From NCBI RefSeq assembly GCF_000002865.3, contig NW_001865040.1, positions 8,888 through 72,887 on the forward strand: a stretch of 64,000 nucleotides of DNA. Reading direction: 5' to 3'. Made by a program: the position numbers and the translations under genes. Source of the DNA: Monosiga brevicollis MX1 (taxonomy: Eukaryota; Opisthokonta; Choanoflagellata; Craspedida; Salpingoecidae). Below, piece after piece: positions 582-48,413 of this stretch. The notes beneath the pieces are model-generated. The model searched no databases. It had not been told where the DNA came from and worked only from the letters and a program-made list of their open reading frames with translations. Each line of letters opens with the position of its first letter. Within the stretch, counting starts at the first letter, position 1.

Positions 582-1951
582 GGTGGCGTTGCGCATCAAT
601 CGACCAATGGATGCCCGTGGCCCTCAGGAAACCGTCATGCTTGGCCAGCAACCCCTTGCGTTCAAGAAAAAAAAAAAAAATAGGGGCTGTTACAGACAGC
701 ACTTTATGTCTGACAATCGCGCTGGCCCGACAACTTTAGTCGGTGACCTTTAAGAGCGAGAAAAAAATAGAGGGCCAACAGCACCATGTATTCCCATCTG
801 GTCACCCACGATAGTACTAGCATGGCCCAACATGGCTTAACTGCGGCGATCAGACGAGAGCCGGTGTATTCCATGTGGTATGACCGTTGGCAACAATTGC
901 CTAGCAAAGTTAAGATATAAAGGTCATTCTAATGTGCGCCCCAGCGCTGGCACCTTGAACCCACACCGAACCAGTTCATGAAGGTGTGACGTCACCCTTT
1001 CTTTTGGAAAAAGAGACAGGAACGCACTTTGTCTTATCCACACACCTAAAAGTGATACAACATGATGCGATGGCAGTGCGCCAACGGCAACGTTTGAAAC
1101 GCTTATGGTTTCTAGTGACGAAAACACCAAAATGTGACGCCCAACGTTTTCCTCATAATGAGCCAGCCCACATCTGTCCATCTGCTTTCGTCTCTGAATG
1201 GCTGAGTATCCACCACGCAGGTCTCTTGTTTCACATGACATGTTTCACACGACTGTTTCGGGCAGATCGTTCACTCTCTGAGACATTCTTTGGTTCAATT
1301 CACATCTCTGACGCAGCAGTCCTATTTTAACACGCCTTGGTTTGGGATCACATAGCAAGACTGGCAGGCATGTTGCCAACCCGCGTGCCCAGCGTTCAGT
1401 GCCGTGCGGTGCCGTTCATCCCCACCAACCACAGCAGCATGCCAACACGCGCGATTGCATCTTCCCCCTCATCTGGCTTGCTCATGACACACGCCCTGTG
1501 CACGCGCCCCCTTCTCGCCCATCTGGCCTCACCCCCCCCCCGCGTGACACTCCCCAACCCGCGAGCGCTTCGTTCCTATTTTCTTCCCCACTCTGTGTGT
1601 GGATGCCCCAGCCTCTTTGCCGGGACCACTGGATCTTCCTTGACCCAGCTCGCCCAAGCCCGATCATTGGTTTTGGTTGCTGAACAGGGAGCCATTCCAC
1701 CCACGGTTGCTTTCACACACATGTATTTACACATGCGCACAGATCGACAGACGCAGGCCCAAGTCACGTTCACAGACACAAACACAGTGGGAGGGCTTCC
1801 GGGTCCATTCACGACTCACGCACGACGCAGGGTGTGCATGTGTACGGATCCCAATCGCTCAAGCACGCACGGTCTGTTGCTTGTGAGCCGACAAGATGAT
1901 GGCCCCCACTCAACGCTCAAGGTTGGTCCTAGCCTGTGACCTTGTTCGACC
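582..1951. other. Intergenic, divergent promoter region
   Basis: About 1.37 kb between the minus-strand secreted protein and the plus-strand exostosin-like gene. It has a short poly-A run near 666-680 and C-rich stretches near 1530. The open frames here have no recognisable domains, and I see no convincing gene. Confidence 0.5.
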
Positions 1952-3325
1952 TTGCCTCATCTCTTCAGATTCCTCGCTCAACTCTCCGCCACTGCGCGCG
2001 CTTCACGCCTGCACAGAAGTCCACCGCGGACATGGAGCGAGCGGTCCACCCGCTTCTTCCGGCTGTGGGTGCTCGCCGTCGTGCTCACCCTGGGAGCCAG
2101 CATCTTCGTCATGTCCCAAGGTGGAATGTTCGACTTTCGCGAAACCGTCGAATGGGTCCGCCTCCAGGTCGATCGGGCCGTTTGCACGCCAGCCAAGCGA
2201 ACTCCTGCTGATCTGAGTGCGATTGATCTCGGCCCTCAAAATTGCACGCACATCCCCTTGCCGCCTCACATGCGCGTCCCCCGCATGTTTGTGGCCGACG
2301 AGGCCTTTGCCACCACCATGAACGGCCTGACTTGTCGCGAATGCGACGAACTTCCCGTGTACGACCAGATCCGTCGCAACCTAACGGGCACTCTTGTCAA
2401 CCGAGTGGAGGATGCGGAATTCATTGTCCTTCCCTTTCCAGCCGAGTGCCACGACAGTTGCCGCTTCAACCGCCAGATTGACTTTCGCCGCGCCGTGGAC
2501 GCCATGCAGCCGCTGCTGGACCGCAACCCCCGCGCCAAGCTGGTGACCGTGAGCCGACGGCCTTTCCCCGAGCGCACCAACTTCCGCACGCCCATGCGTG
2601 ACCTCCTTGCCAACAACCCCAACATCATGTTTCTTTCGCCAGAAATTAAGAATCTCCAGTCCCGCGAGCTCAGATCCGGTGCCGCCAAGTTCTCCTTCCT
2701 CAACCACGTCATCCTACCCCAGTTCCCCGTGGACTTTACCGTTTTTGATGCCCCCTTTGCCCCAGACTGGGACCGACCCTATCGCTTCTGCTTCCAAGGC
2801 ACACTCCTCAATGCTGAGCGCACCATGGTCACGGATGCGCTTCGCCAGCGCAATGATAGCTATGTGCTGTCAACATGTCGCTCCGATCGCGCCGACTTTG
2901 CCGCCACCACCTTTAGCTCCGGGGACTCGGCTACGCTCTACTCACAATGCCAGTTCTGCCCCACGCCCCGTGGTGACTCCAACTGCGATACACGCTTCTT
3001 CGATGCCATGCGCGTCGGCTGCATTCCCATTGTGACCAATGCCATGCGCGCCACACCCTACATCCGCCATGTGGACTATGCCACCTGGTCTTTGGCTTAT
3101 CTGCGTGACACCAACGCCAAGCGCTTTGCACAGTACCTTGATACCTTGGCCGACCAGTCTCCGGAGAGTATTCATCATCAGCGCTTGCGCATGCGCGAGG
3201 CTGCCCTTCAAATTACCCACGCCGAGTGTAACGGCGCGCCCGGTCTCCACTATGCGCTTGCCAGTCTCATTGAAGATCGGTCTGGCCTCGAGGACCTCTG
3301 GGGTCACAGCTTTCAAAACATGTAG
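1952..3325 (+). CDS. Exostosin-like glycosyltransferase (GT47 type), type II membrane protein
   Basis: Single open frame of 457 residues. A short basic N-terminus precedes one membrane segment at about residues 37-55 (FRLWVLAVVLTLGASIFVM), the topology of Golgi glycosyltransferases. The lumenal part begins with a Cys-containing segment and ends in the exostosin signature near residues 325-350, CPTPRGDSNCDTRFFDAM followed by GCIPIV, where the R-G-D-S and F-x-D-A-x-x-x-G-C-I-P elements of EXT proteins are plain. EXT-family enzymes add sugars from UDP donors to glycosaminoglycan-like or other glycans; the acceptor here is unknown. It is shorter than animal EXT1/2, which carry a second GT64 domain absent here. 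The start at 1952 gives a sensible cytosolic tail; a cryptic acceptor at about 1972 means an upstream exon cannot be excluded. Confidence 0.8.
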   Translation: MPHLFRFLAQLSATARASRLHRSPPRTWSERSTRFFRLWVLAVVLTLGASIFVMSQGGMFDFRETVEWVRLQVDRAVCTPAKRTPADLSAIDLGPQNCTHIPLPPHMRVPRMFVADEAFATTMNGLTCRECDELPVYDQIRRNLTGTLVNRVEDAEFIVLPFPAECHDSCRFNRQIDFRRAVDAMQPLLDRNPRAKLVTVSRRPFPERTNFRTPMRDLLANNPNIMFLSPEIKNLQSRELRSGAAKFSFLNHVILPQFPVDFTVFDAPFAPDWDRPYRFCFQGTLLNAERTMVTDALRQRNDSYVLSTCRSDRADFAATTFSSGDSATLYSQCQFCPTPRGDSNCDTRFFDAMRVGCIPIVTNAMRATPYIRHVDYATWSLAYLRDTNAKRFAQYLDTLADQSPESIHHQRLRMREAALQITHAECNGAPGLHYALASLIEDRSGLEDLWGHSFQNM

Positions 3326-43388: not shown

Positions 43389-44621
43389 ATGGCGGAACTC
43401 GAGAACGAGGTCAACTTTGATGAGCTCGATGAGCAGCTCAATGGTGTGTCGCGTCAGCTGCCAGGCTTGTCGTTGTATAGATGGTCGTGCTCAATACCTG
43501 TCGTGCCGCGCATTCAAGGCCTCGGCTAGAGCGACCCCTTCTCTCCTCCCGTGCTTCTTTTTCTTCTACTTTTCTGTTTGTTTGTTTTTTTCTTTTTCTT
43601 TTTTTCATTGGTGTTTGGCCACCTATTGTAGAAACAGACGGCGGCGCGACTGCTGAAGCCAATGAAGATGACGCAAATGCTGGTGCAGGTCAAGAAGAGG
43701 GAGACGAGGACGATGGCGAGACACCAACTCTCGAAGAACTGAAGGCACAGGTCGAGGCATACTCCAAAGAATCAGATGAGGACGCCCAAAAGCTGAAGCA
43801 GATTCAGGAGGCTGCTCGTCGCCAATATTCGACATCCAATGACGGTGAGAGCCCCCACCACCGTACCGCGCCATGCCTACACGAGCACTCCTTCAGATCA
43901 GAACCCGATTCATTATGTAACTTTGCCTTTTGGTCCTTGATCCGTCTCTATTGCTTTCTTTGTGTTCCAGACGAGGCCTCGGGTGAATCGCGAGAGGAGG
44001 TGGACGCACGCTCCATCTATGTGGGCAACGTATGTTTCTTTCGAACCTTCTCCTGCCCCCTCCTCCCTTTTTGTTCCGATTTATTTGTTCTACGTACGTG
44101 CAAAGGCCCGAGCTCATTCGCTGTCCTCGTCCCCAGGTTGAGTATGCTGCCACGGAGGAAGAAATTCAGGCCCTGTTCAAGGATTGTGGCGTTGTGAAAC
44201 GCATCAAGATTATGCGCGACAAGTTTACGGGTCATCCCAAGGGGTGCGTTTGCCCGAATTGACGATCGCTCGCCACAAACACGGTTGTGGCCTCTGACTT
44301 TGAAATATTTCTCGGCCGGCTCTTACACACCCATCTGGCTGGCTGTTTGCCCCTGCCACCCGTTTCCCTTGCTGCAGATTCTGCTACGTCGAGTTTGCCG
44401 AGCCCAACGCCGTGCCGCTTGCCATGGCTTTGGACGAAAGCATGTTCCACGGCCGACAAATCAAGGTCAAATCAAAGCGTACCAACCTGCCCGGCTTGGC
44501 CCGAGGCCGAGGCCGAGGCCGTGGCCGCAGTCGTGGTCGTGGCCGCGGTTACCGTGGCGGTTACCGCGGCCGCGGCAACCGCGGCGGCATGGCCGTCTAC
44601 TTTGCTCCCGTCAGCTACTAA
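43389..44621 (+). CDS. PABPN1: Nuclear poly(A)-binding protein PABPN1
   Basis: Five exons: 43389-43443, 43632-43844, 43971-44029, 44137-44243, 44378-44621; 225 residues in phase. An acidic N-terminus is followed by a coiled-coil helix ([20 protein letters not shown]), which in the family stimulates poly(A) polymerase. The single RRM has RNP2 [38 protein letters not shown]1 CYVEFAEP and the diagnostic [19 protein letters not shown]. The C-terminus is Arg/Gly-rich ([18 protein letters not shown]), equivalent to the methylated nuclear-import tail, and ends in VSY. It binds growing poly(A) tails and sets their length. No poly-alanine tract of the human OPMD type is present. The small first exon ends after 18 codons. 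Confidence 0.95.
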
Positions 44622-45069
44622 GTGCCCATAACCAAACATGAAACCCTTTGTCATGATGCACACGAGGCTTTTGCCCCACCTGCAGCCACCTCTAGCAAGG
44701 CGTGGGCTGTTTGCAGCAACACCAAGCAAGTCTTTGCCGGCTTTGCTGGGAGCAATCCTATTGCCGTTGTGTGCATGCGTGGCCAGTTGCCTCTTCCCCA
44801 CCTTGAAAACGTCGCCGCCTTGCAGCAGAGGCCTAGACTTGCCGGCACGCCTCTCTGGAAAGGAATTAGGGTAGCATTGCCCAGCTTCCGTTTAAACCCT
44901 CAAGTTTGAGCCCACTTTCCAGGTTTCTCGACACTCGTGACGCATGCTCTATCAATCGATCAATTATAAAAATATTAAAATGTACATTGAGCCTTTCCCA
45001 CCTCGCAAGCTCTGCCTGCCGAAACACGCGGCTCACACCAGAGCATAGTCGCCAGGCGCAGCATCATAG
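44622..45069. other. Convergent intergenic
   Basis: About 450 bp between PABPN1 and the PH-WH2 gene. An AT-rich patch with polyadenylation-like AATTATAAAAATATTAAAA sits near 44962-44980. No gene seen. Confidence 0.5.
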
Positions 45070-48000
45070 TTAAAAACCGTCATCCTCGCTATCACTTGAA
45101 GCAGGATTACTCGCGACAGATGCCATCTTGGCCCGCCGGAGAGCCAAAGCCCCCATAAGTGCACTAATCACAGCATCTGATCCCCCAGCCGATGTCGTCG
45201 GCTCTTGTGTGTTGGTCAAAGCTGCTTCCTCTTGCTTCAAACGCTCGCTGAGCGGCTTGAGCTGCCCACTATGGCCACGGATAGATGCCAGTAGGTCGGT
45301 GCGCCCTCCTGCCGTGGCTGTGCTAGAATTGTGACTGGTCGCTGATTGCTGATCGGCATTGCTGGTCGTGGCCGACTTGAGCTGGCCGCCATGACCCCGA
45401 ATGGCCGCCATCAAATCTTGGCGACCCGATACAGCTGCACTGGCTGTGGCTGAGCCCGATGGGGTGTCTTGCAATTGTTGAAGCGCAGATGGTACAGGTG
45501 CAGGTGGTGCAGGCGGTGCAGGCGGTGCAGGCGGTGTTGGTGCTGCGGGTGCTGCGGGTGCTGCGGGTGCTGCAGGTGGTGCAGGCGGTGCAGGCGGTGC
45601 AGGCGGTGCGGGTGCTGCAGGTACTGCTGCGGGTGCTGCGGGTACTGCTGGTGCCGCTGGCGGTGCTGGTGCCGCTGGTGCTGCAGGCGGTGCAGGTGGT
45701 GCAGGCGGTGCGGGTGCTGCAGGTACTGCTGCGGGTGCCGCTGGTGTCGCTGGTGCCGCTGGTGCCGCTGGTGCCGCTGGCTCAAATGCAGTCGAGGCTG
45801 CTTGTGTCTTCTTGCCAGGGGCGTTTTTTTCAGCTTGAGGTGCGCTCACACATTGGCTCGCCTCATCGGCTATACAAGCTTCCAAAGCCTGACGGGCGCG
45901 CTGTGTCTTGATGGTCTCGGGGTATTTCGGGCGAGCGGCGATGGGACGCTGGCTAAAGGCGTGCTGCAGGGACTCGTTTTGCCTGTGCTGCACGTTGTTG
46001 CGCATGGCCATGAATTCCTCGTGCTCAGCCCGTCGACGGCTCAGGGCCGCGCGCTGCGCTGCAAGGGCATAGCGCTCTTGTTGTGCTGCATAGGCGCGAA
46101 TGCGATCGAGGGCGCGCATGCGCAAGACCTCCACCTGCTCGGGGCTCAATTGAGCCGAGGCTTCTTGCAAGGCTGGCAGGTGGTTGGCCACAAACGCCAA
46201 ACTTCGGTTGCGCGCCTGGGCACGAGCCCCTTCACTGCTGCACAACGCGGCCTCGCGGTGCTGGCGGTTGTGTGTGGCACGACGCTTGGCCTGCGTGTGC
46301 GCCGTATGACGACGTATCAAAGCTTGCGCACGCTCGCAAACGCCATCCAACTTCAGCTTGACGGCAACAGTGGCACTGCGAATCCCGGCCAACTTGGCAG
46401 ATCGCTGTTGCGCGGCACGTTGTTCGCGCTTGCGACGCATCACGGTCATGGTAGCTTCAGCTACAAACCCCGCCAGTGCAAGCTCCTGCTGCTGCTGGGC
46501 CAAGCGCGCTCCCTCTGCAAAAGCGTCGACCACCCGCTCACACATGACTTCTAAACGCGCCAAGAGCTCGTGCAAACGCTCCAGCACGCTGAGTTCACGG
46601 CTCTGACTACCCTCTTCCAGTTCATCGTACGTTTGACGAATGGCCAGCAGCCACTGCAAGCGCTTGAGCCGCAACACTCGGGCTCGGGCAGACAGGGCTT
46701 GGGCACCTGCGGTGGTGGCAGACCGCTGGCGTTGTGACAGTGGTTCGGTCCAGTCAATGGCGTCATCGGCGTGTCGGGCCTCTGACTCCACTACAGTTGC
46801 GCTGTTGGGCCCGTGGGGCAACCGCCCACGTTCAAAGCGAGCAGCGTCTGTGGCCAGCTGCCGCGCAGCGCGTTCGTGGGCTTCAGCGCACGCATGCAGC
46901 AAGTCACAGCGCAACTCGGCCAGTCCGCTTTGGTTCTGCAAGAGGGCTTGTGTAGACGGCGGTAAGACCACACGCTTGTCGAACCATTGCTCCAATAGCT
47001 GGGTCGGACTGGCACGGAGTAGAGCACGGTGAGTCTGCTCTAGAGTGCTGAGCGAGTCGAGGTCGTCGCCCGCGGCAAGCGCCAGAATGGCTTCGCCCTC
47101 TGCTTGCAAGACGGTGTGGTTCTCATCATAGGATGTGCGCAGGCGAGCTAGCAGTAGATCGATGAGCTGATCTTCGACATGCAGTGCGTTTATGACTTGC
47201 ATGACCTGACCCAAGCTGCGACGGTTAAAATAGTGCTTGGTCAGCTCGTGGCGGCATTGTTCGACCACGTCCAAACTGAAGACGATCTGTTGTTGTTGTA
47301 AAGCATCGGGCAATTCTTCCGCGCGAAAAAAGGTGCTCAAAAGTTGCGCGTGGGGCAGGATGGAAGCGGCTGCGCTGAGCCAGGCCTGCGCGTCAGCAGC
47401 CTCGAGCTGAGGGGCCAGAAGCCACCGAAGCCCGTTGCGAGGTGTCTTGTTGTGTGCATAAGCGCGTAGCTCAGCACAGAGTTCGGATGGCAAAAGGGAC
47501 TCGAGCACGGTAAGCCGGCGGCGCAGTTCTTCTCCGGAAAGATGAAGCGACCAAGCAGCCTCGGCTTCGTCCGTGGTGTGGTCGCGCAACTCGGTACGAA
47601 TAACATACGACGCGCCGAGGCCCAGAGTATGGGGCTGTCGATCCACCTGAAACACAAATGCCGATGCCAGGTCCGTGGGCTGCCGGGCGATGCCCACTTC
47701 CTCGGCATCAACGAGTTCAAATTGTAAAAGTTCATCGCTTTCGGCGATGGCTGTTGCTGATGGCTCCTCATCCCCAATCGCCTGAGGCCATTTGGTAGCA
47801 GGCGTGTTGGATGGGATGGTTTCCATGTTGTTGGCCGCCATCTCAAGGGCCTGGCGCCAGGCAGTCGTGTGGGTGGAGAAGAACCAGAAGATGCGGTGGC
47901 CATCAGACACGCTGAACCGTTGTCCATTGTCCTGTACGCGCAGATTCATGCCAAGTGGAATAATGGCGCGAAACTGGTGCTTTTCGGCCTCTTCGGCGTT

Positions 48001-48413
48001 GAGCGCATAGGCAACGGAGCATTCCGACTCGCCCTCACGATATATGACGAGGAAGCGCGCTTGCCAACCTGCCAGGAGATTGACATACTTGGAGATGGTT
48101 CCTACACGAAATGATCGAGAGTGCGAAGCACACACACAGAGAGAGAATGAGTGGGTGGTGAGTCAACGTGTTGGAGACAAGTGGGTGTGGCACGATGAGA
48201 TGTTCGGCTCGGCACCAGCATAGCCTTCGCACCGTAGTATAGCCATTGCAGGCGAGACGCTGATGAGGAAGGAATGGGATCTTCACTGGTTTCGTTGTGT
48301 CCGGCACTGTGTGCGGCTTGAGAAAGAGGACCAGAGGCCTTGGTGGAGGGAGCATCTTCTGGAGTTCTCGAAGGACTCGCGGGACCCGGCAACTCGCTAT
48401 GAGCAATGGCCAT
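45070..48413 (-). CDS. PH-domain protein with WASP-like WH2-WH2-central-acidic C-terminus (putative Arp2/3 activator)
   Basis: Two exons, 48233-48413 and 45070-48101, encode 1070 residues in phase. Residues ~57-155 look like a PH domain (LQWLYYG spliced to TISKYVNLLAGWQARFLVIY, then FWFFSTHTTAWRQALEM as the closing helix). Residues ~200-800 are helical with long coiled-coil-like, Ala/Arg/Glu-rich stretches. Residues ~830-940 are a Pro/Ala low-complexity tract (PAPPAPPAPPAAPAAP), a candidate profilin or SH3 site. Two WH2 motifs follow, QDLMAAIRGHGGQLKSA (~955) and TDLLASIRGHSGQLKPL (~995), then ISALMGALALRRAK, resembling the C helix GALMEVMQKRSKA of N-WASP, and the acidic end SSDSEDDGF with Phe instead of Trp. 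Actin binding and Arp2/3 activation are inferred. No WH1, CRIB or SH2 was seen, so it matches no standard WASP, WAVE, WASH or WHAMM layout. Confidence 0.78.
45480..45785 (-). repeat. Coding Pro-Ala tandem repeats
   Basis: About 300 bp of GGTGCAGGC/GGTGCTGCGG-type units within the PH-WH2 gene, encoding Pro/Ala runs. Some blocks of about 100 bp recur (for example near 45586-45640 and 45688-45740), which suggests duplication by slippage. Confidence 0.85.

Follow-up and report, generated by a model that had tools for sequence, protein, structure and literature searches.

Within the window, by which we mean the whole 64,000-nucleotide stretch of Monosiga brevicollis DNA that was analyzed, the minus strand carries a predicted two-exon gene that joins a PH domain to a WH2-containing tail in a protein of 1070 amino acids (ATG at 48413, stop at 45070; Table 1). 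The coordinates 45070..48413 given in a preliminary description of this locus were exact, and the motifs quoted there lie in frame. Residues 54-60 of the first exon (RLQWLYY) run into the PH domain, and the second exon holds ~1010 uninterrupted codons within an open frame of 1030 codons. The GC contents by codon position over the first 830 codons were 68/47/63%, with 54.7% for the window as a whole. On the plus strand, a mechanical open frame of 361 amino acids at 45469-46554, overlapping the helical region and the Pro/Ala tract in antisense, is probably the shadow of this gene, and at 43600-44630 lies a gene for a PABPN1-like RRM protein (family assigned by eye) that is convergent with the PH/WH2 gene.

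Table 1. Features of the predicted PH/WH2 gene, with positions in the window and residues in the protein.
Feature	Position	Strand	Residues	Remarks
Exon 1	48233..48413	-	1-60	ATG, residues 1-60 and first base of codon 61; donor G|GTGCGA in phase with exon 2
Intron	48102..48232	-		131 bp, GT-AG, phase-1; predicted from sequence
Exon 2	45070..48101	-	61-1070	remainder of codon 61 and all later codons including the stop; no interruption
PH domain, CERT/OSBP/FAPP/ORP group	47827..48254 (intron within span)	-	54-152	profile and residue alignment
Helix-like region, family unassigned	45883..47742	-	181-800 (~620)	composition
Pro/Ala tract	45487..45786	-	833-932	45 Pro and 46 Ala in 100
WH2 motif 1	45376..45423	-	954-969	Pfam PF02205
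WH2 motif 2	45256..45303	-	994-1009	Pfam PF02205; near cordon-bleu LLAAIRGHSG
Connector (C)-like amphipathic helix	45124..45171	-	1038-1053	fits published WASP-family C pattern
Acidic C-terminus SSDSEDDGF	45073..45099	-	1062-1070	short; Phe replaces Trp

The preliminary description had proposed that the C-terminus holds two WH2 motifs, a helix like the WASP central region and an acidic end in which Phe replaces the final Trp, and each of these elements was recovered. Searched as a whole, the open reading frame gave 23.4 bits with Pfam PF02205 (WH2) over two stretches, barely above the cut-off of 23.1 bits. With the C-terminal 136 amino acids alone the score rose to 34.6 bits (E 1.3e-8), and because of that score a chance match of low complexity can be ruled out. 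Both motifs retained the hydrophobic helix and the LK, with LKKV changed to LKSA and LKPL, and the PDB chain closest to the tail was cordon-bleu (E 0.0016). In a WH2 search of the organism's own genome, covered here as 39.5 Mb in 57 contigs, each of the two motifs was a match of its own (20.8 and 19.2 bits), and 12 matches in all had an E of up to 10. The protein has, near its C-terminus, the one or more WH2 motifs looked for in a WASP-family member.

For the connector region, the general C pattern has been given as three large hydrophobic residues at three-residue spacing, two or three basic residues and a final hydrophobic one (Kollmar et al. 2012, PMC3298513). As coded here, this pattern had a single match in the 1070 residues, at 1038 (VISALMGALALRRAKM), against a background of 11 matches in 65,658 residues of background frames, from which 0.0097 matches would be expected per 58 amino acids. 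Of seven reference C regions, six of them human and one from the own genome, four matched (N-WASP, WASP, WASH and WAVE1) and three failed to do so (the own-genome WASP-like tail, WHAMM and JMY), and the coding is therefore a strict one. A matrix derived from the same seven regions gave weaker support, with a score of 5.7 bits for the helix at 1038 that was equaled or bettered by 352 of 5000 shuffles of the 58-residue tail and that ranked third in the whole protein, after two windows of the helical region (at 737 and 715). The connector helix of a WASP-family member was found by pattern, with weak backing from the matrix. In the acidic end, four of the last seven residues are acidic. Phe in the position of the Trp is also found in invertebrate WHAMMs and some WASPs (Kollmar 2012, PMC3298513), and the WASP and WASH tails of the own genome, identified by eye, end in ...DSDWD and ...DDGDDWD, respectively, both with Trp.

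Upstream of the tail, the claim of a Pro/Ala tract was borne out, and that of about 600 helical or coiled-coil residues stood as to composition (helix-like residues with low Pro and Gly and high Leu, Ala and Arg contents, Arg/Ala-rich near the end of the region) but found no convincing family match. Residues 181-800 matched no Pfam family, and the middle alone gave a weak best result against the PDB (E 2.5). Ribosomal protein L19 chains returned by a PDB search with the whole open reading frame (E 0.03-0.04) covered the basic end of the middle and ran into the Pro/Ala tract, and these matches look compositional. A single-sequence structure model of residues 61-350 was uninformative, with a pLDDT of 31.7; a PX-like fold considered by eye for residues 181-335, and for the WMD of WHAMM/JMY, had no Pfam match and was not retained. 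The longest Pro run in the Pro/Ala tract was two residues. Classical profilin-binding runs have five or more Pro and are therefore absent from this tract.

The N-terminus had been called PH-like. In support of this, a phmmer search of residues 49-165 against the PDB found the PH domain of ORP11 at E 0.0022, followed by CERT PH chains at E 0.7-0.8, and a COF profile built on six PH domains (one of them from the own genome) gave 27.2 bits on residues 54-160 and 21.9 bits on the full protein, with no more than 9.3 bits in 1000 shuffles and 607 frames of the window. On the other side, generic Pfam PH models gave no match to the domain up to E 10, with controls at 64.5 bits for CERT and 43.2 bits for the own-genome CERT. 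The best non-self match of residues 61-828 in the own genome was to that same type of domain, a CERT-like PH, and it was weak (34%, E 0.215). In three of three alignment modes, CERT K32, N35, R43, Y54 and R66 aligned with the identical residues K65, N68, R76, Y92 and R105, and the alpha-C Trp of CERT aligned with W142 in all three. In the CERT structure, K32, R43, Y54 and R66 are sulfate/phosphate contacts, N35 is an additional contact in a PI4P docking model, and exchange of K56 for Ala left the affinity for PI4P liposomes unaffected (PMC3832616). This K56, which is able to substitute for R66, aligned with Leu, so that the domain combines the group sequence match and four of four phosphate contacts with the loss of K56. 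It shares with the PH domains of CERT, OSBP, FAPP and ORP11 the beta1-beta2 signature GxxxKxxNxxxGWQxRxxV together with the phosphate-contact residues, and differs from them in a diverged second half and a longer beta2-beta3 loop; unlike in those proteins, no lipid-transfer domain was matched by Pfam in the rest of the sequence. We take the N-terminal domain as a diverged COF-type PH domain, its first half being the most secure. Because the phosphate-contact residues of CERT are kept, the candidate lipid narrows to PI4P, and the earlier suggestion of a phosphoinositide-steered Arp2/3 activator becomes plausible in this more specific form.

We compared the protein with the known families that carry such tails. 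Membership in the WASP family has been defined by a WH2-connector-acidic domain (by the authors of WHIMP, PMC7112243), and on that broad definition the protein is a candidate member, with an N-terminal module of which no description was seen among the openly licensed papers listed. It has in common with WASP/N-WASP and WAWH a WWCA tail after a Pro-rich tract, but Pfam matched neither WH1 nor GBD in it, the former in line with the preliminary description, and a separate WASP-like tail with Trp, named by eye, exists in the own genome. WAHD, as expected for WASH, was likewise not matched by Pfam; the own genome has a separate WASH gene, recognized by WASH_WAHD matches that are adjoined by the frame with the ...DDGDDWD tail. 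In Monosiga brevicollis, WASP and WAVE have been listed (Fritz-Laylin et al., PMC5461030). ARPC2, the sole Arp2/3 subunit searched for, was found in the own genome at 142.8 bits. The combination of a lipid domain with a VCA tail has a precedent in WAML, which carries an IMD (PMC3298513), whereas the membrane module here is PH and Pfam gave no IMD match. The WH2 motifs resemble those of cordon-bleu (LLAxIRGHSG), with which the protein shares no further domain by Pfam and from which it differs by the C-like and acidic segments that follow.

Searches for relatives were made in a protein database that includes eukaryotes, and they required shared five-residue words and scored a limited number of candidates, so that a diverged orthologue may escape them. 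With the whole open reading frame, the 7989 scored candidates held one match up to E 10, an adenylate cyclase at E 0.053; the PH part had no relatives among 20 scored candidates, and none were found in viral (11 stretches) or prokaryote (30 stretches) contigs. No orthologue thus emerged from these searches.

According to the preliminary description, no WASP, WAVE, WASH, WHAMM or JMY member is built in this way, which holds for the domains but not for the overall plan. That plan is the one of WHAMM and JMY, comprising an N-terminal membrane-binding part, a long helical middle, a Pro-rich tract, two WH2 motifs, C and A; the last four were found here in the same order, the tract being without Pro runs above two. 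Where WHAMM and JMY have their WMD, however, the present protein has a PH domain. An AlphaFold2 model of one vertebrate JMY, made with 18 sequences, had a pLDDT of about 32-56 in the WMD, and at this low confidence the JMY N-terminus showed three strands followed by helices, not the PH pattern. Pfam WHAMM-JMY_N (WMD) and JMY (coiled coil) did not match the protein, and neither was found in the own genome or in the control genomes. WMD-like and coiled-coil-like anchors seen by eye behind the PH domain had pointed to homology of the middle region with WHAMM/JMY, a candidate that was rejected as sequence tests fell mostly at or near chance. With hhalign, 130 of 200 shuffles were equally good, and in 12 pairwise comparisons (two proteins, two modes, three settings) the corresponding numbers were 24 to 157 of 200 window-shuffles. 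Using BLOSUM45 with gaps of 10/1, WHAMM did better than all 80 circular shifts in either mode, but for JMY 27-28 of 80 were equal or better. Two-sequence HMMs all stayed at or below 0.1 bits, with a best E of about 0.04-0.06 in a one-sequence search that is uncorrected for nine comparisons; a WHAMM/JMY core HMM of 28 sequences gave E 9.2e3, with 280 of 300 shuffles equally good, and BLAST against 120 database WHAMM/JMYs had a best E of 0.59.

Two further tests bear on whether the protein is a WHAMM/JMY homologue, strongly diverged and with a PH domain acquired at its N-terminus, whose helical middle would correspond to WMD and coiled coil; we consider this reading unlikely. The identical order of parts and the Phe that invertebrate WHAMMs also have in place of Trp (PMC3298513) speak for it, as does a WHAMM/JMY tail HMM: the real tail scored 7.0 bits (E 4.1) and none of its 300 shuffles came up to it, although shuffled versions of the middle region in some cases reached 8.7 bits. 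A model-global alignment of the core likewise gave a score rarely reached by shuffling (z 2.5; equaled by 2 of 200 window-shuffles and by none of 200 full shuffles; against block-shuffles z 2.2-3.4, with 0-3 of 200 for each of four block sizes), and it stopped at residue 733, where the LxRLRxF end would be expected. This positive result was nevertheless rejected because 22 of 118 circular shifts were equally good and because the traceback had a different register, with the WMD at about residues 320-515 and not directly behind the PH domain; the WMD alone was at chance level in the same test. The silence of Pfam WHAMM-JMY_N and JMY also counts against homology, since both recognize human WHAMM/JMY at E 3e-40 or better, and so does the lack of a convincing signal from hhalign, pairwise alignment, core HMM and BLAST.

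About equally improbable, in our judgment, is a PH-targeted protein that uses its WH2 motifs to bind actin monomers or to nucleate independently of Arp2/3, in the style of cordon-bleu, WIP or leiomodin, with a C-like helix and acidic end that do not engage Arp2/3. Cordon-bleu being the nearest PDB match of the tail, the short acidic end without Trp and the weak matrix score of the C helix would all agree with such a protein, but the C pattern is placed exactly between the WH2 motifs and the acidic terminus, and WH2 is the sole family that Pfam reported. PH-containing formins occur in animals and in Monosiga brevicollis (PMC5047451), and the gene could in principle be a formin relative or remnant that has lost FH2; with no formin domain matched by Pfam anywhere in the protein and a tail of WH2-WH2-C-A composition, this is highly improbable, and PH-containing formins are a different family from the protein studied here. 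Least probable of all, and hardly to be credited, is that unrelated exons were fused in the reading by chance or mis-assembly. The gene model is a prediction from sequence and the Pro/Ala tract is a simple repeat, but one uninterrupted frame in exon 2 holds both the PH domain (from residue 61) and the tail.

Weighing these data, we lean by a small measure towards a putative WASP-type Arp2/3 activator that would be recruited to PI4P membranes through its own PH domain; its Arp2/3 activation, lipid binding, location and oligomerization are what we infer. The WH2 pair, the C pattern, the score of the tail with the WHAMM/JMY tail HMM and the COF PH match with its aligned PI4P-site residues, together with ARPC2, the WASP-like tail and WASH in the genome, argue for this prediction, and the silence of generic Pfam PH, the exchange of K56 for Leu, the weak C matrix score, the short Trp-less acidic end, the reduced LKKV and the lack of an orthologue in the searches made here argue against it. 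As we would picture it, the COF-type PH domain docks on a PI4P-rich membrane, either trans-Golgi/endosome or plasma membrane. Oligomerization or partner binding is the probable role of the long helical middle, and the Pro/Ala tract may keep the tail at a distance from this membrane. Actin monomers would then be passed by the two WH2 motifs to the Arp2/3 complex, and contact with the complex would be made by the C helix together with the short, Phe-containing acidic end, giving branched actin on the PI4P membrane. Such recruitment and action may be likened, by analogy, to those of WHAMM, which binds phosphoinositides and acts on internal membranes (PMC6697732).

The preliminary description had spoken of a new class of nucleation-promoting factor acting in the microvillar collar or filopodia. 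Because no orthologue is known, the former is too strong, and a variant of a WASP-type tail protein is the more fitting term; nothing points to collar or filopodia, and since the PH domain matches the PI4P-reading COF group, a location at the Golgi/TGN or plasma membrane would be suggested instead. A bolder proposal, which we find possible and yet would sooner doubt than accept, is that of a separate subfamily of Arp2/3 activators reading PI4P via a COF-type PH domain, without WH1, GBD, WHD or WAHD, which would assemble actin on Golgi/TGN-type membranes in a protist and would have reached the WHAMM plan independently with another membrane module. Most WASP-family members are under the control of GTPases or kept in large complexes; if the proposal is true, the direct combination of such a tail with a PH domain that reads PI4P would link lipid to branched actin in a simple way. 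WHAMM has been described as metazoa specific (Kollmar 2012, PMC3298513), and a counterpart to its plan of a membrane-directed Arp2/3 activator would then exist elsewhere. Among the matches listed from openly licensed papers, none described a WASP-family protein with PH and WH2/VCA or a choanoflagellate member of that kind.

The genome held other frames with WH2-like motifs. At C54:1542091, about 20 thymosin/WH2-like repeats (NTPVRNAIRQGVELKSTKPEPAL type, counted by eye) follow one another in the open frame 1084-3039; they may bind actin monomers, and an array of this length is unusual. Pro-rich multi-WH2 frames were seen at C26:62691 and C26:105592; PAWKRxxxxKK-like motifs recur further along in each, and one of the two has a SAM-like N-terminus (by eye). 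At C32:298233 a WIP/verprolin-like WH2 exon, also recognized by eye, lies beside a long N run.
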